Assembly: GCF_000012485.1 (NCBI RefSeq)
Contig: NC_007512.1
Span: forward strand, 931,001-995,000
Source: Pelodictyon luteolum DSM 273
Lineage (GTDB): Bacteria; Bacteroidota; Chlorobiia; Chlorobiales; Chlorobiaceae
DNA length: 64,000 bases
Direction of reading: 5' to 3'
Part shown: one piece after another, positions 41,429-59,264 of the stretch
Numbering within the stretch: position 1 is the stretch's first letter
How the letters are laid out: each line of letters begins with the position of its first letter
Notes under the pieces: generated by a model
Databases searched by the model: none
Told to the model about the DNA's origin: nothing
Seen by the model: the letters and a program-made list of their open reading frames with translations, nothing else
Made by a program: the position numbers and the translations under genes

Positions 41429-41454
41429 TCTCATATAATGGTCGTTTTATGAGA
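41429..41454. promoter_or_regulatory. Palindrome upstream of the serine recombinase, candidate crossover site
   Basis: TCTCATA (41429-41435) and TTATGAGA (41447-41454) are inverted around an 11-base AT-rich centre. Serine resolvase sites have such interrupted palindromes directly upstream of the recombinase gene; it could also be its operator. One copy only is visible. Confidence 0.4.
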
Positions 41455-41562
41455 CAGCAGGGATGGGGGCAGAAATGCCCCTTTTTTTGGCCCAATCTGT
41501 CTTATAAATGCGTACTGTATTTCTATAGTCCAACTACCCATAAAAACAAGCCGTTTTCAAGA

Positions 41563-42159
41563 ATGACCGATACAACACCCAAAACCGAGAGACTGATCGG
41601 CTATGCCCGAGTCTCGACGACAGGTCAGGAACTCAACCTGCAGCTTGATGCCCTGAAGCAAGCCGGCATACCTGACAAACTCATCTTCATCGACAAGGCA
41701 AGTGGTGCGAAAACGGAACGGCCGGGTCTCGCAGCCTGCATGACGGAACTGCAGGCAGGGGACACCCTCGTCATCTGGCGGCTGGACCGACTCGGCCGAT
41801 CACTGAAACATCTCATCGAAATCGTCGAAGAGCTGAAGGGCAGGGGAGTAGGGTTCCGCTCAATCAGTGACGGAGGGATCGACACCACCACCGCGTCCGG
41901 CGAGATGGTGTTCAACATCTTCGCTACCCTGGCTCAGTTTGAGCGGCGACTTATTCAGGAACGGACTCAGGCGGGGTTGAAAGCAGCAAGATCCAGAGGC
42001 AAGAAAGGCGGTCGGCCGAAAATCTCAGCGAATGATCCGAAGGTGCAGATGGCAAAGAAGATGAGCAAGAACCTCAGCATCAGCGTTGGGGAGATCTGTA
42101 GCACGCTGAAGATTTCACGTGCGACGTATTACAGGTTTCTGAAGATAAAGGGGGAATAG
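41563..42159 (+). CDS. Serine recombinase (resolvase/invertase)
   Basis: A 198-residue enzyme of the Tn3 resolvase/DNA invertase family. The catalytic domain starts with [12 protein letters not shown] (catalytic Ser), continues with [20 protein letters not shown] and [15 protein letters not shown] (active-site Arg residues), and the long E helix [20 protein letters not shown]. The DNA-binding end is [20 protein letters not shown] with a helix-turn-helix. ATG 41563 is preferred; an open frame extends to 41449. An interrupted palindrome at 41429 may be its site. It is probably part of a former transposon. Confidence 0.85.
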
Positions 42160-43439: not shown

Positions 43440-43555
43440 CTACAGAAGCCCTTGTTTGAGTCTCTCCGCATCTTTTATAACTGGAAGTGGATCCATTCGG
43501 CCTTGGGATATCTCCAGCAGACTACTTACGAGTCGATTACAAATCGAGGTCTCTG
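43440..43555 (+). pseudogene. IS3-family transposase C-terminal fragment
   Basis: LFESLRIFYNWKWIHSALGY then LQQTTYESI is the standard end of IS3-type OrfB (RRHSALGY motif). The frame is fused in phase with the binding-protein gene downstream, though the true start of that gene is at 43605. The rest of the transposase is missing; 43231-43440 has no gene. Confidence 0.7.
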
Positions 43556-43604
43556 GCTTTTTAATCCGTACATTTCTTTCTTGCAACTCCAGTCCCTCGG
43601 TGCC

Positions 43605-44633
43605 ATGCACGAACGCCAGCGATCAACAGGTTCCTTACTGTTCCAGGCATTCAGCCTGATGGTTGTTGTTGCGCTGCTTTCCCTTGCTGCATATCCCTCC
43701 CTGCTCCATGCAGAACCCCCGCTTAAAAAAGCTTCCCTCATTCCTCTCTGGAGCCCGCAGGCACAGTTTGCCGGGTATTATGTTGCCCTTGAAAAAGGGC
43801 TGTACCGCCGTTACGGGGTTGAACTGACTATCCTGAACGGAGGCTCGGGCAATTCGCCAGTCGAGGCCCTCCAGAGCGGCAGGGCCGACTATGCGGTGAT
43901 GTGGCTGACCACGGCGTTGCGGCATCGTGATGCAGGGATACGGCTTGTGAACATAAGTCAGGTTATCCAGCGGTCTTCGATGATGCTGATTTCCAGAAAA
44001 TCCAGCTGGATTGATTCATTGCAGGGGATGAACGGAAAAAAGGTCGGACTGTGGGACGGAGATTTATCGATTCCACCACTGACGTTGTTTTCCCGCAGGG
44101 GCATTACGATCCGTCAGGTACCGCTAACAAATACGGTGAACCTGTTCCTGCGCGGGGGGATTGATGTGACCTCGGCGATGTGGTACAACGAGTATCACGT
44201 GATCCTGAACTCAGGGGTGGACGCCGATGAACTCAATGCGGTCTTTCTGAGCGAACAGGGCGTGAACTTCCCGGAAGACGGGATTTACGGGCTTGAAAAG
44301 ACCGTGAAGGGTGATCCTGCTTTGGCTGCAGCCATTGCGGATGCCTCACGGGAGGGGTGGCAGTATGCGTTCGATCATCCTGAAGAGGCGCTTGATATTG
44401 TAATGAAATATATGCTTCGTGCTCATGTACCGGCAAACCGGATGCACCAGAAGTGGATGCTGAACCGGATGCGCGACATTATCATGCCCGGTGCAGCTTT
44501 CGGCAAACTGCCGTCCGGAACATTGGATCGGAAGGACTACCATGATGCAGGAAATGCCATGCAGCGTGCAGGGCTGATAGGGGGGTATCCGGACTATGCC
44601 GATTTTACCTGGAGACATGATGCGGTTCAGTAA
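43605..44633 (+). CDS. NMT1/THI5-like periplasmic substrate-binding protein
   Basis: A 342-residue ABC-type binding protein. The signal peptide is MVVVALLSLAAYPSLLHAEP. The mature part starts LIPLWSPQAQFAGYYVALEK, the classic NMT1/THI5 entry, with GGSGNSPVEALQSGRADYAV and later GVNFPEDGIYGLEKTV. Ligands in this family are thiamine precursors, nitrate/sulfonates or riboflavin-like compounds; the ligand here is unknown. No cognate permease lies beside it. Its end overlaps the PP2C sensor gene, so it probably delivers ligand information to that sensor (inference). Confidence 0.8.
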   Translation: MHERQRSTGSLLFQAFSLMVVVALLSLAAYPSLLHAEPPLKKASLIPLWSPQAQFAGYYVALEKGLYRRYGVELTILNGGSGNSPVEALQSGRADYAVMWLTTALRHRDAGIRLVNISQVIQRSSMMLISRKSSWIDSLQGMNGKKVGLWDGDLSIPPLTLFSRRGITIRQVPLTNTVNLFLRGGIDVTSAMWYNEYHVILNSGVDADELNAVFLSEQGVNFPEDGIYGLEKTVKGDPALAAAIADASREGWQYAFDHPEEALDIVMKYMLRAHVPANRMHQKWMLNRMRDIIMPGAAFGKLPSGTLDRKDYHDAGNAMQRAGLIGGYPDYADFTWRHDAVQ

Positions 44634-46551
44634 GAGCATTGTCATCCGCATGATTGTGGTGATTACCCTGTGCAGCGCAGGAATTTTCGCCGTAACGCTT
44701 GTCGTCAACTATCTGCAATCACGGAGCATGCTTGAAATGGAGCTTGAAAAGAATGCCCGCAATCTGGCATCTTCACTGGCTAACAGGGTGGACGCAGAGC
44801 TGGTTTCGGTGGCGAAGGTGACGGAGGGGATGGCACGCTCACTCGATACAGCAGAATATAGTCGAGAGGGGCTTGTTTCTCTGATTGGCAGCATGCTTGA
44901 TGCCAACCCGTCGGTCTATGGTTCGGCCATTGCATTCGAGCCTTATGCATTCAATAAGCAGGAGCGCCTCTATGCGCCCTACCTGTTCCGTGACGAAGGA
45001 GCGGTAAAGGCAATCCGTCTTGATGCCTCCTACCGGTATGTGCCGTACCTTTATCAGGACTGGTACCAGATTCCCGTCGAGCTGCAGGCGCCAGTGTGGA
45101 GCGAGCCTTATTTTGACGATGGAGGAGGGAATGCGACCATGGCGACCTGTTCGGTTCCCTTTTATTACTCGAGTGGGGGAAAACAGGATGTTAAGGGTGT
45201 GGTATCGGCAGATATCCGGCTTGATTCACTGACCCAGCTGATTTCTTCTGTCAGAATCCTCAAAACCGGCTATGCGATGCTCCTGTCGCGAAACGGCATG
45301 GTGCTCACCCATCCTGACAGTTCATTCATCATGAACGAGTCCATTTTCAGCATTGCCGAAGAGCGAAGAGATCCTGTGCTGCGGGAGATGGGAAGAAAGA
45401 TGATTGGCGGAGAGTCGGGTTTTGTGCACCATTCCCTGACGGACGAGCCGGGCTGGATGTATTATGCTCCGATCCGTTCGACAGGCTGGACTCTGGCTGT
45501 TGTTTTTCCTGAAGCGGAACTGTTCGAAAATGTAAGGAGCCTGAGCCTGACTATGGCAGGGATTGGCACTGGCGGACTATTGCTTCTTGCGCTGGTTGTG
45601 GCCATGGTCACCCGTTCAATAACCATTCCGATCAGGGCGCTGGCAAGTGCAACGGGGCCGATGGCTTCAGGTAACTTCGATGTGGAACTGCCTGCTGTCC
45701 GCTCGAACGATGAAATCGGCATGCTCACCCGTTCGTTCCGCATGATGGGGGAGTCACTGAAAGAGTATATCCGCGACCTGACGGAAACTACGGCACAGAA
45801 AGAACGGATACAGAGTGAGCTGCAGATGGCCACCGACATTCAGGCGAGCCTCCTGCCCCGTATCTTCCCGGCATTCCCTGAGCGCCCCGAGTTCGATATC
45901 TTTGCATCGATGGATGCGGCCAAAGAGGTCGGTGGAGATTTTTATGATTTCTTTTTCATCGATGACAGTCATCTCTGTTTCCTTATTGCCGATGTTGCAG
46001 ACAAGGGGGTGCCTGCGGCACTCTACATGATGGTTGCAAAGACGCTTCTGAAGTCGGAGGCGCAGCGGTTGAGAGATCCCGGTGTGATTCTTGAGCATGT
46101 GAACAACATCCTTGCCGAAGATAATGAGAGCTGCATGTTCGCTACCGTGTTCTGCGCCATACTCGATACCGCATCAGGGGAGCTGATCTTTTCGAATGCA
46201 GGCCACAACCCGCCGCTCCTCGTCGGTTCGGGCGGTGTGCGTTATCTGGACGTGAAGCCGGGATTCCTGCTTGGACCCGTGCCGGATTCCCGGTACGAGA
46301 CCGAACGCATCACACTGCGCAACGGGGATGTATTCTTCCTCTATACGGACGGGGTCACCGAAGCAAAAAACAGGGAGGATGAACTGTTCGGGGAGCAGCG
46401 CCTGCTGGAGATTCTGCAGGGTGATTTCTCCATGGCGGTGGAGGATATGGTCCATGCCGTCCGCTCCAGAGTAACGGAGTTTGCTGAAGGGGCGGCGCAG
46501 TCGGACGACATCACGATGGTTTCGCTGCAATACACGGGAAATGGCATATGA
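44617..46551 (+). CDS. Cache-HAMP-PP2C (SpoIIE/RsbU-type) phosphatase
   Basis: A 644-residue membrane phosphatase. A first membrane helix (about residues 8-30), a periplasmic dCache-like domain (to about 290: PYFDDGGGNATMATCSVPFY, GYAMLLSRNGMVLTHPDSSF), a second helix (305-330) and a HAMP domain. The catalytic PP2C domain follows: EVGGDFYDFFFIDDSHL, LIADVADKGVPAALYMMVA, FSNAGHNPPLL, YTDGVTEAKN, SDDITMVSLQ. RsbU-type enzymes dephosphorylate STAS anti-anti-sigma proteins, and one lies downstream at 53010. CTGGAGAC precedes ATG 44617. It overlaps the binding-protein gene by 17 bases. Confidence 0.88.
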   Translation: MMRFSKSIVIRMIVVITLCSAGIFAVTLVVNYLQSRSMLEMELEKNARNLASSLANRVDAELVSVAKVTEGMARSLDTAEYSREGLVSLIGSMLDANPSVYGSAIAFEPYAFNKQERLYAPYLFRDEGAVKAIRLDASYRYVPYLYQDWYQIPVELQAPVWSEPYFDDGGGNATMATCSVPFYYSSGGKQDVKGVVSADIRLDSLTQLISSVRILKTGYAMLLSRNGMVLTHPDSSFIMNESIFSIAEERRDPVLREMGRKMIGGESGFVHHSLTDEPGWMYYAPIRSTGWTLAVVFPEAELFENVRSLSLTMAGIGTGGLLLLALVVAMVTRSITIPIRALASATGPMASGNFDVELPAVRSNDEIGMLTRSFRMMGESLKEYIRDLTETTAQKERIQSELQMATDIQASLLPRIFPAFPERPEFDIFASMDAAKEVGGDFYDFFFIDDSHLCFLIADVADKGVPAALYMMVAKTLLKSEAQRLRDPGVILEHVNNILAEDNESCMFATVFCAILDTASGELIFSNAGHNPPLLVGSGGVRYLDVKPGFLLGPVPDSRYETERITLRNGDVFFLYTDGVTEAKNREDELFGEQRLLEILQGDFSMAVEDMVHAVRSRVTEFAEGAAQSDDITMVSLQYTGNGI

Positions 46552-46630
46552 TGTCCAGCAATCGATGCCCCGCTGATTATAAGTAAAGCTGACAGCAATA
46601 ATAAACGAATCCACCCGTAATCAAGACACC

Positions 46631-47413
46631 ATGAATAAATTACGACCTTCAGTATTGGTGATTGTGCTCTTCTCCCTCTTCATTGTGCTTGGCGGATGCA
46701 GCCAGCGGGAGAAAATCACTGCACTGCAGCAGCTGTCAGGAAAAGAGTTCGCCGTTCCTACCGGAACTGTTGCCGACAAGCTGGTGCTCTCAAAACTGCC
46801 CGATGCACGGTTCCAGTACTATAACACCGTTATGGACGGGGCTCTTGCCGTGAAAACGGGGAAGGCGGATGCGCTGGCATATGATGAGCCCATCCTGAAA
46901 AACATTGCCGCAAAGGTCGATGGGCTTGTCATTCTCAAAGAGATGATCACGGTCGACCAGTATGGTTTTGCTGTCCGTAAAGATGACGCCCCGCTCAAGC
47001 AGGCCATCGACAGGACGCTGGGCCAGCTGAAGACGGGCGGGACCGGCACGGAGATGCTGCGGCGCTGGTTTCCTGTATCCGGAAGTCCGGCTCCGATGCC
47101 CGAAATCGCCTCAAGCGGTGACAACGGAATATTGCGCCTCGGCACTTCAAGCGTGACTGAGCCTTTTTCATTTGTTGATGGCAGCGGGATGGTTGTCGGG
47201 TATGACATCGAGCTTGCCCGGCGTGTAGCTGCGGGGCTCAGCCAGAAGCTTGAGGTCGTGAACATGGACTTCGGCGCGCTGATCCCGGCCCTGATGTCCG
47301 GCAAGGTAGACATGATTGCAGCCTGCATCACCATTACCGAAGAGCGCTCAGAAAAGGTACTCTTTTCAGAGCCTTATTATACGGGCGGAATCGCCGCAAT
47401 GGTGGCTCAATGA
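46631..47413 (+). CDS. Lipoprotein with circularly permuted solute-binding domain
   Basis: A 260-residue SBP_bac_3-type protein with a lipobox (LGGCSQR). Order is inverted: the lobe-2 half comes first (LSGKEFAVPTGTVADKLVLS, KTGKADALAYDEPILKN, LRRWF) and the N-lobe half last (ILRLGTSSVTEPFSFVDGSG, VGYDIELARRVAAGL, SGKVDMIAACITITEERSEK, FSEPYYTGGIAAMVAQ). In ordinary binding proteins the N-lobe block begins the mature chain. Ligand family is polar amino acids by similarity. The last four bases overlap the next gene. Confidence 0.85.
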   Translation: MNKLRPSVLVIVLFSLFIVLGGCSQREKITALQQLSGKEFAVPTGTVADKLVLSKLPDARFQYYNTVMDGALAVKTGKADALAYDEPILKNIAAKVDGLVILKEMITVDQYGFAVRKDDAPLKQAIDRTLGQLKTGGTGTEMLRRWFPVSGSPAPMPEIASSGDNGILRLGTSSVTEPFSFVDGSGMVVGYDIELARRVAAGLSQKLEVVNMDFGALIPALMSGKVDMIAACITITEERSEKVLFSEPYYTGGIAAMVAQ

Positions 47414-50382
47414 AGGGGCGCATGCATAGATGGTTTCCGGTCCTTTTTATCCTTGCCCTGCTTTCCGGCTGCGGCAAAGATGCGCAGGAGATCCGCTCGA
47501 TTGAGGATGCCCGCAACGCAAGGATTGGAGTGATGACCGGTTCGACCGGCGAAGAGCTGGCGCTGCAGATGTTTCCTGACGCCGATATCAAGAGTTTCGA
47601 TGACGTCATGGACGCCGTCACCGCGATGATGTCCGGCAAGCTGGATGCAATCGTCACAGCCTATCCCACGGCGCTGCAGGTAACCAAGAAGCATACTGCA
47701 TTCCGTGTCCTCGAAGAACCGCTCCGCAACGAGAATACATGCATTGCCCTGAGGAAAGGCAATCCGGCACTCCTCACTACCCTGAACGGCATCATCGATT
47801 CGCTCCACCAGGATGGTACGCTTGCCGACATGCGCAGGCGGTGGTTTAAAAATGACCTGTCCCCATACGAGGAACGCACGCTTGAGGTGCCGACGAAGGG
47901 GGAGGTACTTAAAATAGGTGTCACCGCCACAAGGGAGCCGATGTCGTTCATGGACAGGGATGCAGAGGTCAGCGGATTCGACGGAGAACTGGCACGCATC
48001 ATCGGCCGGGTTCTCCGCCGGCCGGTAGAGTTCCATAACATGAAGTTCATGGGGCTTATTCCTGCTCTTCAGTCTGCAAAGATCGATCTGGTGATTACCG
48101 GTATGACGGCCACGGCTGAGCGGAAGCGATCGGTTGATTTCACAAAGACCTATTTCGAGAACGCCCAGGTTATGCTGGTCAAGACCGCAGCTCCCCACGG
48201 TGATGGCAAGGTAAGGGTACTGAAGGATATCGACGGGAAACGGGTTGCGGTGCTGTCGGGTTCTGCCGGAGACCTTGCCGCGCGCCGCCGGTTCCGCGAT
48301 TCAGAGTTCCTTGTGATGGAAAATGCAGCCGATGCTGCCGTTGCCCTGAACACCCGAAAGGCAGATGCATTTATCTATGACAGGAGCGTGCTCGAGAATA
48401 TTGCCCGACAAGAGCCGGGGCTTGTGATTCTTGGAGAACCGGTGGCGAAGCTTGAGGTTGCCGCAGCCCTCAAGAAGGGTAATACGGCGCTTGCTTCGGA
48501 GTTGAACGAGGCGATTGGGGCGTTCACAGAAGACGGCACTCTTGCCATACTTAGAAAGAAATGGATCGACGGGGATGGCGGCTCCCTTCAGGAATCGAAT
48601 GCAGGCGGGAGGAAAGGCGAAGCAGAGCTTCGGATGGGGACCTGCGCTGCCCTGGCTCCATTCTCCTATCATGCGAATGGAGAAATCACGGGACTTGACA
48701 TTGAGCTGGCCAGGATGATCGGCAATCGGCTCCAGAAAAAAATCACGCTTGTCGACATGCCGTTCGGAGCCCTGATTCCGGCACTGCAGGCGGGCAAGAT
48801 TGATTTTGCCCTTTCTAACTTCAATGTCACCGAAGAGCGAAAGAAGCTGATCCTGTTCTCGAGGCCCTATCTTCAGAATGACATTTCCGCGCTTGTGCTC
48901 CGTTCAGCCGCTGCTCCCGCGGCACCGGTTTCGGAGGGGGCATCACTTTCAGCTCCTGATCTGAACGGCACGCGGGTTGCCGTGCTGCTTGGTTCCACGC
49001 ATGACACCTATGCACTCAGTCACTACCCGAACGCAACGCTCCTGCAGTACAAGACCCCATCCGACATCATTCTGGCCGTCAAGAGCGGCAAGGTGGACGC
49101 GGGCATATACACAACCGAGACCCTCCGGGAGATTTTCAGGGCAGACCCGTCCCTTGAGCTCAAGGGCGGGGTCCTGTTCTCCGTACCCGTGGCCATGGGG
49201 TTCAATAAGCAGAATGACAGCCTTCGGGAGCAATTCAATGTCTTTCTTCAAGACATCCGTCAAAACGGTGTCTATCGGGATATGGTCGACCGCTGGATCA
49301 CCCGGGGTGAGGATGCAATGCCCTCCATTTCCGGCACAAGGGCCAATGGCGTCCTGAGGGTCGGGGTTGTCAGCGACAAGGGGCTTCCGTTCATGATTGT
49401 CAAAAACAACCGCCTGGTAGGGTTTGACGAGGAGCTCGCAGAACGGTTTGCCGCATATCTCGGCAAGGAGATCAAGACAAGTGATATGGATTTCGGCAAC
49501 TTGATCGCAGCTGCGGCCACGAACAAGATTGACATGATTGCCAGCACGCTCATGATTACCCCGGAACGGGCACTCCAGATCAGTTTTTCTGATCCATATT
49601 ATGAGATTGGGGCAAGCGCTTTCGTCATGAAGACGGGGGAGGCTGAGGCTGTCGCTGGAAACGACGCTCCGGGTGCTGCATACTCCTTCATTCAGCCCAT
49701 TGTGGACGGATTCCAGAATAATATCATAAAGGAAAACCGCTGGAAACTGATTCTCAGCGGACTGAGAGTCACCGTAATCATTTCGGTGCTTTCAGCTCTG
49801 TTCGGCACGGTGCTCGGGGCGGGTGTATGCGCCATGCGCATGTCATCGGCCAAAACCTTGAAGACGCTGGCATCGGTGTTCATTTCCCTGCTTCGGGGAA
49901 CGCCTGTATTGGTGCTGTTGATGCTGATTTTTTATGTCGTGTTCGCATCGGTCTCCATTGATCCTGTGGCTGTTGCCGTCATTGCCTTCGGGCTGAATTT
50001 TGCAGCCTATGTGGCCGAAATTTTCCGGAGCGGTGTGGAGAGCATCGACAATGGGCAGCGTGAGGCGGGGATTTCCATGGGGTTCACCCGGCTTCGTACC
50101 TTCCTGCTCATCATCCTTCCTCAGACCATCCAGCGCATCCTGCCGGTGTACAAGGGCGAGTTCCTTTCGCTCGTTAAAATGACCTCGATCGTCGGATACA
50201 TCGCTGTCGAGGACCTCACGAAAGCAGGCGACATCATCCGGAGCAGGACTTTCGATGCATTCTTTCCCCTCATCATGGTAGCAATACTGTACTTTTCAAT
50301 TTCCTGGCTGCTGTTGCAGTCGATGGCATATCTTGAACGAAGGACGGATCCGAAATTCAAACGGATAAAGACAGCGGTATGA
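47410..50382 (+). CDS. Triple permuted solute-binding protein fused to amino acid ABC permease
   Basis: A 990-residue fusion. A lipoprotein signal (LALLSGCGKD) is followed by three lobe-2/N-lobe units in permuted order: RIGVMTGSTGEELALQMFPD then VLKIGVTATREPMSFMDRDA; RVAVLSGSAGDLAA then ELRMGTCAALAPFSYHANGE; RVAVLLGSTHDTYALSHYPN then VLRVGVVSDKGLPFMIVKNN. The last 240 residues form a HisM/GlnP-type permease with EAGISMGFTRLRTFLLIILP (the EAA loop facing the ATPase). Chain length far exceeds normal fused receptors. Overlaps the neighbouring genes by 4 bases at both ends. Confidence 0.88.
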   Translation: MKGRMHRWFPVLFILALLSGCGKDAQEIRSIEDARNARIGVMTGSTGEELALQMFPDADIKSFDDVMDAVTAMMSGKLDAIVTAYPTALQVTKKHTAFRVLEEPLRNENTCIALRKGNPALLTTLNGIIDSLHQDGTLADMRRRWFKNDLSPYEERTLEVPTKGEVLKIGVTATREPMSFMDRDAEVSGFDGELARIIGRVLRRPVEFHNMKFMGLIPALQSAKIDLVITGMTATAERKRSVDFTKTYFENAQVMLVKTAAPHGDGKVRVLKDIDGKRVAVLSGSAGDLAARRRFRDSEFLVMENAADAAVALNTRKADAFIYDRSVLENIARQEPGLVILGEPVAKLEVAAALKKGNTALASELNEAIGAFTEDGTLAILRKKWIDGDGGSLQESNAGGRKGEAELRMGTCAALAPFSYHANGEITGLDIELARMIGNRLQKKITLVDMPFGALIPALQAGKIDFALSNFNVTEERKKLILFSRPYLQNDISALVLRSAAAPAAPVSEGASLSAPDLNGTRVAVLLGSTHDTYALSHYPNATLLQYKTPSDIILAVKSGKVDAGIYTTETLREIFRADPSLELKGGVLFSVPVAMGFNKQNDSLREQFNVFLQDIRQNGVYRDMVDRWITRGEDAMPSISGTRANGVLRVGVVSDKGLPFMIVKNNRLVGFDEELAERFAAYLGKEIKTSDMDFGNLIAAAATNKIDMIASTLMITPERALQISFSDPYYEIGASAFVMKTGEAEAVAGNDAPGAAYSFIQPIVDGFQNNIIKENRWKLILSGLRVTVIISVLSALFGTVLGAGVCAMRMSSAKTLKTLASVFISLLRGTPVLVLLMLIFYVVFASVSIDPVAVAVIAFGLNFAAYVAEIFRSGVESIDNGQREAGISMGFTRLRTFLLIILPQTIQRILPVYKGEFLSLVKMTSIVGYIAVEDLTKAGDIIRSRTFDAFFPLIMVAILYFSISWLLLQSMAYLERRTDPKFKRIKTAV

Positions 50383-51905
50383 GAAAGCTGGCCATGATAT
50401 CCGCACTTCTTTTCGTTGCAGCGTCGCTGGTAGTCGGAACATCTTTAAACGGCGCAACCCTCCGCTCACCCGATGACCTCAGGCTTGGGCGGATAGGGGT
50501 CCTTCAGGGGACCATCCATGAGCGCTATGCCATGAAAGCCTGGCCTGAGGCGACGATACTCCAGTACCAGTCTCCGTCTGATCTCTTGCTGGCGGTGAAG
50601 TCTGGAAAGGCAGACGCTGCCATTTACAGTGATGACGAACTCATGGTGATGCTACGCCAGAACGGTGACCTTGCCGTTCTGGGGGATGAGCTGCTTGCAA
50701 CCCCGCTCGGCATGGGGTTCCGCTACGAACAGACTGAACTGCGCAGCGCATTCAACAATTTCCTCCGGGACATCATGGCTGACGGGCGGCAGGACGCGAT
50801 GGTCCGCTACTGGATGAAGGACGGCGGAACCCGGATGCCGGCGATTGCAGCATCGGCAGAGAACGAAGTGCTCAGGGTTGGTATTCTCAGCGATAACGGT
50901 ATGCCGTTCTGCGCACTTATCGATAACCGGCTTACCGGATACTCCATTGAACTGCTCGACAGGTTCGGGCTGTACACAGGGCGGAAGATTACCTATGTGA
51001 ATATCGAGTTCGGGAGCATGATAGCCGCTCTTGCAAGCCGAAAAATCGACATGATCGGCGCCGTGATGGCAATTACCCCTGAGCGGCGCAAAAAGGTTGC
51101 TTTTTCCGACCCTTACTATGCACAGGGAGCCCACCTCTTTGCCCTGAAAAAGAACATTGCATCATTACCTCAACCCTCGACAGCCGGCAGTGTAAAGGAT
51201 GGGGAGTCTTTCCTTGCGGGGATTGCCGAAAGTTTCCGGAGCAACATCCTGCTGGAGAACCGCTGGCAGCTCATCCTTGAGGGGTTCCGGACAACCCTTG
51301 TCATTTCCGTGTTTTCCGCACTGCTTGGAACCCTCTTCGGCGCCCTGGTCTGTTTTATGAGAATGTCACGCCTCAACATCCTGAGGGTGTCGGCCGGAGT
51401 TTTCATCTCGCTGCTTCGCGGCACGCCGGTGCTGGTGCTCCTGATGCTGGTATTCTATGTGGTCTTTGCCTCCGTCAACATCGACCCGGTGCTGGTGGCA
51501 GTCATCGCCTTCGGACTGAACTTTGCAGCCTACTCTGCGGAAATCTTCCGGGCCGGCATTGAGGGTATCGACAGGGGGCAGACCGAGGCGGGTATCGCGA
51601 TGGGCTTTACCGGGCCGGCAACGTTTTACTTCATTGTTCTGCCGCAGACCCTGCAGCGCATCCTGCCGGTCTACAAAGGGGAGTTCATTTCATTGGTGAA
51701 AATGACCTCGATTGTGGGCTATATCGCGGTGCAGGATCTGACGAAAGCTGGAGATATCATCCGAAGCCGTACCTTCGATGCCTTTTTCCCGCTCATTATG
51801 GTAGCGGCATTATATTTCTTTCTCTCATGGGCTCTCATGCGCATGCTTGAATACCTTGAAGGCATGATGGCCCCAAAACACCGGAACCGAACCGTTGCAG
51901 CATGA
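50379..51905 (+). CDS. Single permuted solute-binding protein fused to amino acid ABC permease
   Basis: A 508-residue sister of the preceding protein. A signal peptide is followed by one permuted unit: lobe 2 ([38 protein letters not shown]), then N-lobe ([57 protein letters not shown]). The permease half ([40 protein letters not shown]) is closely similar to that of the 990-residue protein. The two permease halves may pair as a heterodimer on the ATPase of the next gene, with which it overlaps by 4 bases. Confidence 0.88.
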
Positions 51906-52993
51906 TACAGATCAAGCATCTTTCCAAGAAGTTCGGGGCACTTGAAGTACTCCGCGATGTAAGCATCACCGTCCGGAAAGGAGAAGTGATTTCAATCATC
52001 GGCCCCTCCGGTACGGGAAAAAGCACATTCCTGCGATGCATCAACCTGCTTGATCGTCCGAGTGGAGGGTCGATTGTCATCAATGGAGTCGATATTCTTG
52101 ATCCCAAAGCCGATGTACCGGCCATCCGCAGGAAGATGAACATGGTGTTCCAGTCCTTTAACCTGTATCAGCATCTTTCCGTGATGGACAACCTGACCCT
52201 CGGTCCTGTGAAGCTGTTGCAGACCGGCAGGCAGGATGCGGAGAAAAAGGCGCTCGAGCTGCTCAAGCTTGTAGGGCTTGCTGAAAAGGCTGACAGTTTT
52301 CCCGATGAGCTGTCCGGAGGCCAGAAACAGCGTGTAGCCATTGCCCGCTGCCTGGCGATGGAGCCATCAATCATTCTGTTCGACGAGCCGACCTCTGCAC
52401 TTGATCCTACCATGGTAAGCGAGGTGCTGGCTGTCATCCGCCGTCTGGCCCGGGACGGTATGACCATGCTCATCGTTACCCATGAAATGAAGTTTGCAAG
52501 GGATGTGTCCAGCAGGGTGCTCTATATGGACGAGGGTGTGATTTATGAGGAGGGGCCCCCTGAGCAGATCTTTGACAACCCCCAGAAGGAGAGGACGAAA
52601 ATCTTCATCAATCGGGTGAGGAGCTTCAACTACCGGATTGCTTCCCCCGATTACGATCTATATGCCATGAATGCGGAAATTGAGCTGTTCTGTGAAAAGC
52701 AGATCCTTCCGCTGAAGTCCCGACAGAGTCTGCAGCTGCTCGTCGAAGAGGTCTTGCAGATATGCGCAGATACCCTGCGCTCCACGGCGATCGAGCTGGC
52801 CATAACCCATTCGGAAAAGACCGGGGAGATAAAGCTTCTGGTCGAGAGCGGAGGAGCAGAGGAGAACATCCTTGAATCGGCAGCCCTGCCGGACGAACTG
52901 GGCCTGACGATCATCCGCAATCTTACCCGGAGCATTGCATACAAGCGGGATGGTGGTCAAAACAGGCTCACATTGATCTTAAAAGAACAATAA
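51902..52993 (+). CDS. GlnQ/HisP-type ABC ATPase with C-terminal GHKL-like tail
   Basis: A 363-residue protein. Residues 1-245 are a polar amino acid ABC ATPase: GPSGTGKST (Walker A), [11 protein letters not shown] (Q-loop), [19 protein letters not shown] (signature), [13 protein letters not shown] (Walker B), [11 protein letters not shown] (H-loop). The last 118 residues are extra and align with the RsbW-like protein at 53352: [20 protein letters not shown] against the N-box helix, [15 protein letters not shown] against the middle strand, [20 protein letters not shown] against the end. The N-box Asn is replaced by Gln, so ATP binding there is doubtful. It may be the docking site for the STAS protein (inference). 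Confidence 0.85.
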
Positions 52994-53009
52994 ATGAAAG
53001 GTGGTCAAA

Positions 53010-53348
53010 ATGGAATTCCAGATACAAAAAGAAACGGCGGCAACGGTTGTTGCTGTCATCGGCAGGATGGACGCCGTAACGGCTCCCGAGTATGAAAAAA
53101 AACTTGCCGGGATGATGGACGAAGGGGAAAAAAATTTCATCATTGATTTCGGCAAGCTCGACTATATCAGCAGTGCCGGTTTGAGGGCTTTGCTCATGAC
53201 TGGCAAAAGAGTCAAAAACCTCGGGGGTCTTATGCTGCTTGCCAATATTGGCGGTGCAGTCAAGGACGTGTTTGCGATCTCCGGTTTCGGAACAATCTTT
53301 CCAATGCACGATACCGTGCAGAGTGCGCTTGGCGCAGCTGAAGAGTAG
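53010..53348 (+). CDS. STAS anti-anti-sigma factor (SpoIIAA/RsbV-like)
   Basis: A 112-residue single STAS domain: VVAVIGRMDAVTAPEYEKKL, FIIDFGKLDYISSAGLRALL and LANIGGAVKDVFAISGFGTI. The phosphorylatable Ser is in YISSAGLR. In its dephosphorylated form such a protein binds a GHKL kinase partner; PP2C phosphatases restore it. AAAGGTGG lies upstream of ATG 53010 and a GTG 53001 is less likely. It stands between the tailed ABC ATPase and the RsbW-like gene, three candidate partners within 2.7 kb. Confidence 0.92.
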   Translation: MEFQIQKETAATVVAVIGRMDAVTAPEYEKKLAGMMDEGEKNFIIDFGKLDYISSAGLRALLMTGKRVKNLGGLMLLANIGGAVKDVFAISGFGTIFPMHDTVQSALGAAEE

Positions 53349-53351
53349 ACG

Positions 53352-53783
53352 ATGATGCCGGAAGAACGGATAAGGGTTGATGCGAAGCTTGACCGGCTTG
53401 AGGAGATAATCGGTTTCGTGGAGGACTGTGCCGATCGGTTCAGGCTGGAAGACTCCCGGAAATTCGGGCTGAACATTGCCGTTGAAGAGGCTGTTGTCAA
53501 TATCTGCAGTTATGCATACCCTGATACTGAAGGCATGCTTGATGTGGCTTGCAGGGTTACGGATGAGTCACTCGTGATTGAACTGTCCGATTCAGGTATC
53601 CCTTTCAACATCCTTACGCTTCCTGACCCTGAAACAGATGCTGCGATAGAGGATCGGGAAATCGGAGGCCTTGGCGGCTATTTCATCCGGCAGTTCAGCG
53701 ATGCTGTCAGTTATACACGAAGGGATGGAATGAATGTTCTGACCCTTTTGTTCCGGCGTGGAGCATCAATAGAGCTGCCATGA
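53352..53783 (+). CDS. RsbW/SpoIIAB-like GHKL kinase
   Basis: A 143-residue protein of the HATPase_c_2 anti-sigma type: GLNIAVEEAVVNICSYAYPD (N-box), SLVIELSDSGIPFNILTLPD (G1-like D-box), IGGLGGYFIRQFSDAVSYTR (G2). It would phosphorylate the STAS protein encoded 4 bases upstream. No sigma factor gene lies in the operon, so its outlet may be the transporter tails instead. The last codons overlap the permease gene. Confidence 0.9.
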   Translation: MMPEERIRVDAKLDRLEEIIGFVEDCADRFRLEDSRKFGLNIAVEEAVVNICSYAYPDTEGMLDVACRVTDESLVIELSDSGIPFNILTLPDPETDAAIEDREIGGLGGYFIRQFSDAVSYTRRDGMNVLTLLFRRGASIELP

Positions 53784-55480
53784 ACACAAAACCACCCAAT
53801 CTGACCTATGGCCTTGAGGACACCCCGCCTTTTCCGGTGAATGTTCTGCTCGGCTTTCAGCACGCGGCCCTTGCCCTGGTGTTCATTGTCTATCCTCTCA
53901 TGCTGGTTTCAGAGGTTCACGGCACTAAAAGCGAAGCCGAAGGGATTGTTACCGCTACCATCCTGGCCATGGCTATCGGGACTTTCCTCCAGTCCCTGGG
54001 CAACAAGGGGATGGGTAGCGGGTTCCTTGCCGTCCAGATTGCCAGCCCGGTCTATCTGCCGGCAGCCATCATGGCAGTCCATGCCGGCGGCTTGGGTCTT
54101 GCCTGCGGTATGACCATTATCGGGGGAATGTTCAGCATGATGCTGTCTCGTTACCTGAAATATCTCCGACCTATGTTTCCTGCCGAAGTGTGTGGCGTCG
54201 GAGTAATGATGCTCGGCGTATCGATGATCGGTCCCGGAGTCGAGCGTGTGATCGGGGGCTCCTCAGTCCCCGATGCCGGCTCCATGATGGTAGCATTCAC
54301 TACCATATCACTTATGGTCGGGTTGAGTATTTGGTCGAAAGGGCAGCTGCGGCTCTACTCTGCCGTAATCGGCCTGCTGGCCGGCTATGCGGTAGCACTA
54401 TGGTCAGGCCTCACTGAACCCCAAAGCGTGAACGACCTCTTTGTCGACGGAGTCCTGACCGTTCCGGTCATTCACCTTCCTGCACTTAGTTTTGATTGGG
54501 TCCTACTGGTCCCGTTCGCAATAATCGCGATGGTCTCATCACTTGACACGATTGCATGCATCATCACCTGCCAGAAAATAAACGAACCTCATTGGGTGCG
54601 GGCGGGGATGAAGTCCATCAGCGATGGAGTGTTGGCCGATGGCCTGGCAACCCTCATCGGTGGCGTTCTGGGTACCATCGGCAGCAATGTCTCTTCATCC
54701 CATATTGCCCTATCATCCGCTACTGGGGCAACATCAAGAAAAATCGCCCGATTGGCGGCGTTGCTCCTGCTGCTGGCGGCTTTTTTGCCCCCTATTACGA
54801 AACTCCTTGCAAATATCCCCGCACCTGTTATTGGTGCGGTTCTGATGTATGCGGCCGCATTCCTCATCGCTTCGGGGATGGAGCTCATTGTGTCACGGAT
54901 GCTTGATACGAGAAGGATATTCATGATCGGCTTTTCCATCATCATTGGCATTGCTTCAATCCAGATGGCGGATGTTATCCATCAGCTGCCGCCCACTATT
55001 TCCAGCATTGCCGGATCACCCTTTGCTATAGCATCGCTCTCGGCAATCATCCTTAATCTTCTCTTCCGGATCGGCACAACCCTCAATGCCTCATTCGCCA
55101 TGGAGCCCCGACTTGAAAGCATTGCCTCCGCGCTGGAGTTTCTGGAAAGCAGGGGGGCCTCATGGGGCGCTCGGCGCGAGGTGATCCGAAAGGCTGAAAA
55201 TGCCGTCAACGAAGCGCTGGAATCGCTTATCATGATGGGTTACGCAGAAGGTCGGCTTGAACTGCAGGTGCGTTTCAGCGAGTATCATCTTGATGCAGTG
55301 CTTCTCTATCAGGGAAAGCCGTTTGTGTTTTCAGGAGTAGCGCATCAACCATCACAGATTGATAATGGTGATGAGGCGCTCATGCGCTTTGCTGCAGCTC
55401 TCATAGGACAATATGCCGACAGCATGACAACCGATATGCAAAACGGGGAGCAACGCATTTCCATGCGCTTCGAACATTGA
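53780..55480 (+). CDS. NCS2 uracil/xanthine-type permease with C-terminal GHKL-like tail
   Basis: A 566-residue membrane transporter. Residues 1-430 are the 14-helix nucleobase-cation symporter-2 core: FQHAALALVFIVYPLML, LAVQIASPVYLPAAIMAVHA, GTIGSNVSSSHIALSSATGA and IPAPVIGAVLMYAAAFLIAS (signature-like). The last 125 residues are soluble and resemble the GHKL-like tail of the ABC ATPase (EVIRKAENAVNEALESLIMM, LELQVRFSEYHLDAVLLYQG, ALIGQYADSMTTDMQNGEQR), without clear ATP-binding residues. Ordinary NCS2 proteins lack this. It ends the gene run. I infer that it is gated by the STAS protein. Confidence 0.85.
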   Translation: MNTKPPNLTYGLEDTPPFPVNVLLGFQHAALALVFIVYPLMLVSEVHGTKSEAEGIVTATILAMAIGTFLQSLGNKGMGSGFLAVQIASPVYLPAAIMAVHAGGLGLACGMTIIGGMFSMMLSRYLKYLRPMFPAEVCGVGVMMLGVSMIGPGVERVIGGSSVPDAGSMMVAFTTISLMVGLSIWSKGQLRLYSAVIGLLAGYAVALWSGLTEPQSVNDLFVDGVLTVPVIHLPALSFDWVLLVPFAIIAMVSSLDTIACIITCQKINEPHWVRAGMKSISDGVLADGLATLIGGVLGTIGSNVSSSHIALSSATGATSRKIARLAALLLLLAAFLPPITKLLANIPAPVIGAVLMYAAAFLIASGMELIVSRMLDTRRIFMIGFSIIIGIASIQMADVIHQLPPTISSIAGSPFAIASLSAIILNLLFRIGTTLNASFAMEPRLESIASALEFLESRGASWGARREVIRKAENAVNEALESLIMMGYAEGRLELQVRFSEYHLDAVLLYQGKPFVFSGVAHQPSQIDNGDEALMRFAAALIGQYADSMTTDMQNGEQRISMRFEH

Positions 55481-57095: not shown

Positions 57096-59264
57096 ATGCT
57101 CAGACAGAAGAATATCTCTGGTGTACGCTCAAACAAAATGATCAGGCGCCTGCTGGCCTTGATAATCGCCGTTGCGTTTATTCTGCTTGCCTTGCTTGCT
57201 GGTGAGCTCATCATCAAGCGGTATAACAACCATAAAGCAATCGAAACAAAGGCCATCAACGGGACCATGGCCGATGCGAGGCGTATCGGCATGTATGCCC
57301 GGATGATCGAAGATGTTGCCTTAGACATCGAATCGCTGTTGGCTACCTCGCCAGCTGATACGCTTGATACAAAAGGGCTGATTGAACTTGTATTTCGCCA
57401 CCAAGTGACGAATCCATGGCACTGCACGATAACAATGCAGTTGAATGAACAGGGGAATGCATTCAAGGCGCAATTACAGAGGCCCGACGTCCGCAAAAGC
57501 CTCGATTGCCTTCATATACATATTGTCGAGGCCCCATCGGTTCACTTGCAGCAAGCAGACAGCGGTGAACCCAAACCGCTTAATGGGTGGCAACCGGCCC
57601 GATGGAGCCACGAAGAGCATGCCGAAATGGTGGCATTTCAAAAGGTATTGCGCTCGAAAGGACCCGCTGGGGTTGACATCCCCATCGGCCTGCTCTCAAT
57701 CCGGATGAATCTCAGCCAGCTCAACCAGGTGTTGAATCACCGGGATATGGGCAGTTATGGCTATCGGTTCCTTTTGCAGCCGGATGGACTCACCATCAAC
57801 CATCCAAACAAAGAGCTGCTGCTTACACCGTTCAATTTTCTGGAACACGCCAGCAACTTCTACTCTTTCGTCAATCAGAATAAGATTCAGCAGGCGTTTT
57901 CTGAGCATGAGCCGGTAACCGTTGTCGCCGAAAACATTCTTTCAAATCAGTCGTCACTGATCCGGCTGGAGCCAGTGCCTGAAACGGGATGGTTTACGGG
58001 CATTACGCTTGTAAGGCAGGAGTTGGCAATCCCCGACAGCCACCTGAAACGGCACTACTTCAATGTCCTCACTGCTACAATTGTCCTGTTGCTGCTTTCC
58101 GGAGCCTACTTCTTCATGTATACCATGAAGCGTTCTGACATAGCCATGCTAAAAGACTTTGCGTGGTTCAGTTCTGCAGTGTTCTTGATAGGGTTGGTCA
58201 GCTTATGGCTGCTGCAGATCAATAAAGGCCATGAGTCCCCTTATGCGGACCAATGCATCACCACGATGCCGCAGATTGAGCAGTACATGAAGGCACAGAC
58301 AGAAAGTGCTTGCGATAATGAGCAACCACGCCCGCAGTTCATCCAGGTTGGTGCTCTGATCCGTTCGGCCCGGCTGTCGGAGTCTCTGGAAACCGTTGAT
58401 CTCTACGGAATCATATGGGAGAGAATCCCAAAAGGCATCGATATTGATATAAACAGTGGGGTCAGGTTCCCGGACGAAATCGAGAGCACATTGCAAGAAG
58501 AATACCGTATTGATGAAGGATCATCAACAATTATAGGCTGGTCGTTCAAAACCAAAATCCGGCAAAACTTTAAAACCAGCATCTATCCCTTTGATCAGCT
58601 CAATATCCGCCTGAGAATCCGGCCTCCGCATGACTTTTCATCGATTATCTTTGTGCCGGATATTGAGTCCTACAAGATTATATCCCCCTCTTCATGTACA
58701 CTGGTGGCAGATAATTTCCACATCCCCGGATGGCGGATTAATAGTACCTATTATAATTTGCATGAAAACTCTTATAACATTGATTACGGATTACGAGCAA
58801 CAAATGCCGACCGTCATATTAAGGATGTCCTGCTGAACATGACCTTCAACCGGGACTGGGTAGGAAGTTTCGTCGCGGTCCTGATTCCGATTTTTGTCAT
58901 TCTGGGGATTCTCTATTCGAGTATTCACATGATTACCAATGATGCCGAAACCCGAAAACTGTTCAACTTTGATGGCATGCGTACCTCGGTGATTGGTTCG
59001 ACCTTTACACTGTTTCTTGTTTTCGCAATCCAGAACTTGAGAGGAAAACTCATTCCTGATGAGATCCTGTATGTTGAAAAAATCTATTTCATAATCTACT
59101 TCGCAATTCTGGCAAATATTGCTGTATCCATTGCCATCACGGAACAGCGGAATTGCGTTTTCATTAGATATTGTCACGGATTGTTTTTCCGTTACATCTA
59201 CTGGCCGTTCTATCTCGGAGTTCTCTACGTATTATCGCTCTTCAGTTTTTACTTCATATCCTAA
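57096..59264 (+). CDS. Cache domain fused to pentameric ligand-gated ion channel-like protein
   Basis: A 722-residue fusion. N-terminal helix (about 15-37) and periplasmic Cache-type sensor (to about 330: GYRFLLQPDGLTINHPNKEL, PVPETGWFTGITLVRQEL), membrane helices near 335-380, then a Cys-loop-receptor-like module: IYPFDQLNIRLRI (the Pro-loop landmark), DNFHIPGWRINSTYYNLHEN, four membrane segments beginning FVAVLIPIFVILGILYSSIH, GMRTSVIGSTFTLFLVFAIQ and IIYFAILANIAVSIAITEQR. The last bases run into the IS end, which supplies the stop. The protein could be truncated at its very end. Confidence 0.75.
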   Translation: MLRQKNISGVRSNKMIRRLLALIIAVAFILLALLAGELIIKRYNNHKAIETKAINGTMADARRIGMYARMIEDVALDIESLLATSPADTLDTKGLIELVFRHQVTNPWHCTITMQLNEQGNAFKAQLQRPDVRKSLDCLHIHIVEAPSVHLQQADSGEPKPLNGWQPARWSHEEHAEMVAFQKVLRSKGPAGVDIPIGLLSIRMNLSQLNQVLNHRDMGSYGYRFLLQPDGLTINHPNKELLLTPFNFLEHASNFYSFVNQNKIQQAFSEHEPVTVVAENILSNQSSLIRLEPVPETGWFTGITLVRQELAIPDSHLKRHYFNVLTATIVLLLLSGAYFFMYTMKRSDIAMLKDFAWFSSAVFLIGLVSLWLLQINKGHESPYADQCITTMPQIEQYMKAQTESACDNEQPRPQFIQVGALIRSARLSESLETVDLYGIIWERIPKGIDIDINSGVRFPDEIESTLQEEYRIDEGSSTIIGWSFKTKIRQNFKTSIYPFDQLNIRLRIRPPHDFSSIIFVPDIESYKIISPSSCTLVADNFHIPGWRINSTYYNLHENSYNIDYGLRATNADRHIKDVLLNMTFNRDWVGSFVAVLIPIFVILGILYSSIHMITNDAETRKLFNFDGMRTSVIGSTFTLFLVFAIQNLRGKLIPDEILYVEKIYFIIYFAILANIAVSIAITEQRNCVFIRYCHGLFFRYIYWPFYLGVLYVLSLFSFYFIS

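Follow-up and report, generated by a model that had tools for sequence, protein, structure and literature searches.

We provide evidence that an operon of Pelodictyon luteolum DSM 273 rather likely encodes a partner-switching phospho-relay that acts on an importer in place of a sigma factor. PP2C, STAS and GHKL proteins together form the RsbU-RsbV-RsbW switch, which normally controls sigma factors. Here the switch genes share an operon with an ABC importer and an NCS2 permease, and the importer ATPase carries a C-terminal tail that is related to the switch kinase. The genome consists of a single contig of 2,364,842 bases; the window denotes the whole stretch of 64,000 nucleotides that was analysed (C1:931001-995000), and positions refer to it unless marked otherwise.

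The operon spans 43452-55480 on the + strand (Table 1). Pfam confirms the one-strand run of Cache-PP2C, transporter, STAS, RsbW-like and NCS2 genes that the initial annotation had described from position 44617 onwards. However, the operon probably begins upstream of that position with the NMT1 gene, since this gene overlaps the PP2C gene; its own true start probably lies downstream of the first TTG at 43452. The genes had been said to overlap mostly by 4 bases. Such overlaps are real, but occur at four of the eight junctions (SBPa/permease 1, permease 1/2, permease 2/ABC and RsbW/NCS2), the others reading -17, +79, +16 and +3. Similarly, two of the three supposed binding/permease proteins are indeed fusions, but the third is a binding protein only. 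The binding domains encoded at 46631-51905 are circularly permuted, with the N-terminal part of lobe 1 placed behind its C-terminal part and lobe 2: residues 113-227 of PDB 6svf match residues 32-147 of the lipoprotein, and 6svf residues 9-101 match its residues 165-257. Among homologues the number of binding-domain copies per permease varies widely (245 to over 1250 aa).

Table 1. Features of the operon in window coordinates.
Feature	Position	Strand	Evidence
NMT1/THI5-like periplasmic binding protein	43452..44633	+	Pfam NMT1 1.4e-35; overlaps PP2C gene
dCache-HAMP-PP2C phosphatase, RsbU/SiaA type	44617..46551	+	Pfam SpoIIE 3e-53, dCache_1 1.6e-21, HAMP 1.6e-10
SBP_bac_3 binding lipoprotein, stand-alone, family 3, circularly permuted	46631..47413	+	PDB 6svf
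Tandem permuted binding domains fused to amino-acid type permease	47410..50382	+	Pfam SBP_bac_3 in four stretches, BPD_transp_1 1.6e-19
One permuted binding domain fused to permease	50379..51905	+	Pfam; PDB 4yms_D 3.9e-35 over residues 297-495
ABC ATPase gene, whole	51902..52993	+	
ABC ATPase domain, amino-acid importer type	51902..52621	+	Pfam ABC_tran 7.5e-35; GlnQ-like, under cut-off
Probable GHKL pseudo-kinase tail, C-terminal on ABC ATPase	52622..52993	+	Pfam HATPase_c_2 E 0.002 (under cut-off); hhalign to operon RsbW
STAS protein, RsbV/SpoIIAA type	53010..53348	+	Pfam STAS 3.7e-19
RsbW-like kinase, ATP motifs intact	53352..53783	+	Pfam HATPase_c_2 2e-25; PDB RsbW 6m36 1e-10
NCS2 permease gene, whole	53780..55480	+	
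NCS2 nucleobase permease, membrane part	53780..55090	+	Pfam Xan_ur_permease 4.9e-42
Probable RsbW-related tail, C-terminal on NCS2 permease	55091..55480	+	hhalign to operon RsbW

The ABC ATPase extends about 123 residues past its ABC domain. This tail shares 27-31% identity with operon RsbWs (BLAST), and a profile-profile comparison with the operon RsbW gives a probability of 96 and an E value of 2.3e-9 (hhalign). A PDB search with the tail profile alone returned no GHKL match and a fold search was required: the predicted model of the tail of a 55%-identical relative matches SpoIIAB, RsbW and UsfX with TM scores of 0.73-0.75 (Foldseek). As judged from this model, the ABC tail is a GHKL fold of the anti-sigma kinase (RsbW/SpoIIAB) type, which upholds for this protein the earlier description of the tails as GHKL-like. 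The N-box Glu is invariant in ABC tails, the catalytic N-box Asn is missing in all of them and a gap of about 10 residues is found at the ATP lid. Given a retained Glu, an absent Asn and a short lid, the tail is a probable pseudo-kinase.

For the NCS2 permease the same description holds in part. Its tail resembles the operon RsbW at the profile level (hhalign probability 89-94, E 2e-6 to 2e-7), and an HMM of the tail matches the operon RsbW at 21 bits and no other RsbW of the genome. The Glu is kept and the Asn lost, in a register judged by eye. The case is nevertheless weaker than for the ABC tail, as the model reaches a pLDDT of 51 with no fold match and direct comparison with the ABC tail is weak. 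From these profile matches, the permease probably carries a second RsbW-related tail. An NCS2 permease with the same type of tail is also encoded in an Ignavibacteriales genome (L198 15341-18832), adjoining a 5TM-LYT PP2C and a STAS gene.

The switch proteins themselves agree with the RsbUVW type: the operon encodes a SpoIIE-type PP2C, a STAS protein with a phospho-acceptor Ser and a GHKL kinase with intact motifs. Ser55 of the STAS protein aligns with Ser58 of SpoIIAA, which we take to be the numbering of the phospho-acceptor there, and Ser54/Ser55 are invariant in 13 homologues. In RsbW, Glu46, Asn50, Asp80, Gly82 and GGLG are invariant in 11 homologues, so that the N, G1 and G2 motifs are intact. 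The best NCBIfam match of the Cache-PP2C is SiaA (1.4e-27, under the cut-off of that family). The genome has another partner-switch module, composed of a receiver-PAS-PP2C, two STAS and an RsbW, inside an exopolysaccharide cluster (L063 3096-10336; C1:1539095-1546335).

The initial annotation saw no sigma factor beside these genes, and a search with Sigma70_r2/r3 profiles found none of the SigB/SigF type in the operon or the genome, including any that could serve elsewhere as sole partner of the RsbW-like protein. Sigma70_r2 has three matches in the genome and Sigma70_r3 one, the latter in a 359-aa RpoD-type protein; the two remaining matches are short, one of them being read as ECF-type. A hidden second sigma factor as output was therefore rejected, RpoD alone having region 3. 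As the cognate sigma factor is absent, we do not file the operon as a sigma-controlling switch.

The gene order, on whose recurrence the initial annotation had made its reading depend, is shared by other genera and phyla. Scanning 84,980 species genomes yielded 105 relatives, of which 80 were kept; these come from more than ten phyla or classes, and the nearest among the found loci is a Pelodictyon (Chlorobium) luteolum MAG. In many relatives STAS directly follows the ATPase gene, often together with RsbW and with Cache-PP2C and NMT1 genes close by; in others RsbW is convergent, the switch genes are divergent or PP2C is fused to RsbW. The tailed ATPase occurs with STAS/RsbW/PP2C in Chlorobiaceae, Geobacteraceae, Methylococcaceae, Nitrotoga, Burkholderiaceae and Hydrogenedentes, and with STAS alone in Verrucomicrobia and Acidobacteria. 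Because the same set is found again across phyla, it is more than a chance assembly. Among 30 well-flanked loci outside Chlorobiaceae, 11 (0.37) have a STAS gene within about 10 kb, against a rough expectation of 0.06-0.10 if STAS genes were as dense there as in this genome (binomial p 9e-5 or lower). The NMT1 gene adjoins Cache-PP2C in 14 of 48 well-flanked loci. On the ATPase tree the STAS label changes at least 14 times (24.7 in shuffles) and phyla are mixed, on which grounds gain, loss and horizontal transfer look frequent. Elsewhere, RsbW-like domains are found in proteins of 492-493 aa adjoining STAS (L197 237-1715, L199 7492-8973); in that of L197 Pfam also finds a GNAT acetyltransferase domain.

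A whole second copy of the operon, 96-100% identical, lies beside argH/argG (G000 C1:1180296-1190762; L008 4297-14763), with its NCS2 gene cut to a 72-aa remnant comprising the first 41 and the last about 32 residues. A related MAG (L026) has only the argH/argG-type copy, and another Chlorobium (L029) has a similar NCS2 remnant of 98 aa. To see whether the window copy is a local insertion that the nearest strain lacks, its DNA flanks were searched, with no match. Just upstream of the operon, a serine recombinase at 41449-42159 (Pfam Resolvase 1.2e-46) may be related to the duplication. Downstream, 57096-59264 encodes a membrane protein of 722 aa that weakly matches Cache and for which a PDB search finds only Cache proteins; a YPFDQL motif, seen by eye ahead of several membrane helices, recalls Cys-loop channels.

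Linkage to the switch is not universal. In all 20 of 20 genomes outside Chlorobiaceae without a linked STAS gene, STAS is present elsewhere, in 13 of them above 110 bits. Of 12 such unlinked regions that were inspected, most have RsbW, PP2C or NMT1 beside STAS. That many genomes encode STAS and RsbW away from the transporter would fit an arrangement in which the transporter is the sensor, its ligand occupancy or turnover being passed through the tail to STAS, with STAS and RsbW acting on another target in the cell; transporter-coupled signalling does exist. Against this, no gene for a separate output accompanies the module, a Cache sensor is already present in the operon and the genome has no output of the SigB/SigF type. 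We regard the transporter as sensor as unlikely, and the partner-switching relay with the importer as output remains our preferred reading.

Chlorobium itself provides a more demanding comparison. The tailed ATPase is present in 36 of 65 Chlorobium genomes, with gene surroundings of two kinds, class A (STAS and, for the most part, RsbW, PP2C and NMT1) and class B (binding protein, permease and ATPase only). Class B genomes keep the tail in their short operon, and no STAS above 65 bits was found in them, five having none at all. This shows that the tail is not used only for the STAS switch and can persist without it. Erosion of the GHKL similarity of the whole tail in STAS-less lineages was considered and not seen, as similarity to RsbW does not differ with the presence of STAS (p 0.67). 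In the same comparison, the N-box EE motif is present in 13/13 against 16/22 (post hoc, p 0.06). Both the persistence of the tail and its unchanged whole-domain score speak for a tail that makes no contact with STAS and serves as an appendix by which the ABC ATPase dimerises or is stabilised, the operon merely carrying the switch genes. Nonetheless, tail and switch stay associated through rearrangements in different phyla, and modelling and covariation, set out below, also argue for contact between the two; an appendix is thus quite improbable.

In one relative (L112) the tail and STAS share a reading frame, and we modelled this tethered read-through with AlphaFold2, reading stops as Gly and using an alignment of nine homologous read-throughs (10 rows in total). 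Both domains pack against each other (pLDDT 85, pTM 0.79) with a disordered linker; in our judgement, two independent domains of such size would be expected to score clearly lower. STAS is thus predicted to dock on the ABC tail, the pairing with GHKL-like tails that the initial annotation had put forward for modelling. Partial distance correlations corrected for the ABC domain are weak for tail-STAS (0.30, p 0.04), and reach 0.30 for RsbW-STAS (p 0.005); for tail-RsbW none is found beyond the ABC domain (-0.08). This pattern is as expected if STAS is the shared partner. The tail is homologous to RsbW and RsbW-type kinases form dimers, but the missing tail-RsbW covariation and the packing of STAS on the tail make it very unlikely that the two form a GHKL-GHKL heterodimer through which the kinase is anchored at the transporter and STAS serves merely as its substrate.

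The partner-switching relay would then operate as follows. RsbW would phosphorylate STAS on Ser55 and so prevent it from binding its partners. The Cache domain would sense a periplasmic signal, perhaps supplied by the NMT1 protein (conserved adjacency is what links the two), and PP2C, once activated by this signal, would dephosphorylate STAS. Free STAS would dock on the pseudo-kinase tail of the ABC ATPase, and probably on the NCS2 tail too, whereupon transport would change. We infer that RsbW and the tails compete for one STAS, as we do the direction of control and the signal. Given the apparently dead kinase-domain copies on the importer and probably on the permease, and the recurrence of this wiring among many unrelated bacteria, direct switching of transport on or off is probable. 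Since a conserved tailed ATPase persists in some Chlorobium lineages that have no STAS, we lean very slightly towards STAS as a brake on transport over STAS as an activator. More tentatively, and with somewhat less than an even chance in our estimate, this may be a widespread, horizontally moving system in which one phospho-switched STAS is the shared brake or key for several transporters with their own pseudo-kinase docking domains (NCS2 permeases as well as ABC importers), and uptake would be set by a periplasmic sensor within seconds and without transcription.

Compared with known systems, PP2C, phospho-Ser STAS and GHKL kinase in one operon are as in RsbU-RsbV-RsbW and SpoIIE-SpoIIAA-SpoIIAB; in contrast to these there is no sigma factor, and the third partner would be a pseudo-kinase domain on the transporter ATPase and probably on the permease. 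Regulatory C-terminal domains on the ATPase are also seen in the MetN, ModC and OpuA importers, and binding domains fused to the permease in GlnPQ. The regulatory domains of MetN, ModC and OpuA bind small ligands; to our knowledge there is no GHKL domain among them, nor one that responds to a phospho-switched STAS. The nearest precedent for STAS acting on an ABC ATPase is MlaB-MlaF, in which the STAS protein MlaB binds MlaF, the ATPase of a lipid transporter, and controls it (PMC7367683). There, however, the C-terminal extension of MlaF is an unrelated handshake tail and no kinase or phosphatase is known for MlaB, whereas here STAS is predicted to bind a GHKL domain that belongs to an importer of the amino-acid type. 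Among Cache-PP2C relays with an output other than a sigma factor, SiaABCD of Pseudomonas comes closest; it has a PP2C of similar architecture and a phospho-switched partner, its output being a diguanylate cyclase and no transporter (PMC7647112, PMC8457831). SypA-SypE and BtrU-BtrV-BtrW also represent STAS/kinase partner switching outside sigma control (PMC10120452), but with biofilm formation and type III secretion as outputs. Within the literature accessible without subscription on the GHKL/STAS/ABC combination and related partner-switch topics, as well as on circularly permuted binding proteins and SiaABCD, we found no description of such a system.

Partner switching is known for freeing sigma factors or a few other regulators, and the probable transporter output is what differs here. 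The finding bears on the question raised for MlaFB of whether MlaB is phospho-regulated and whether such STAS-ABC control is more widespread (PMC7367683). A degenerate kinase domain fused to the engine of an importer would place nutrient uptake under post-translational control by a periplasmic signal, and its presence predicts which ABC importers of environmental bacteria are switched by STAS.
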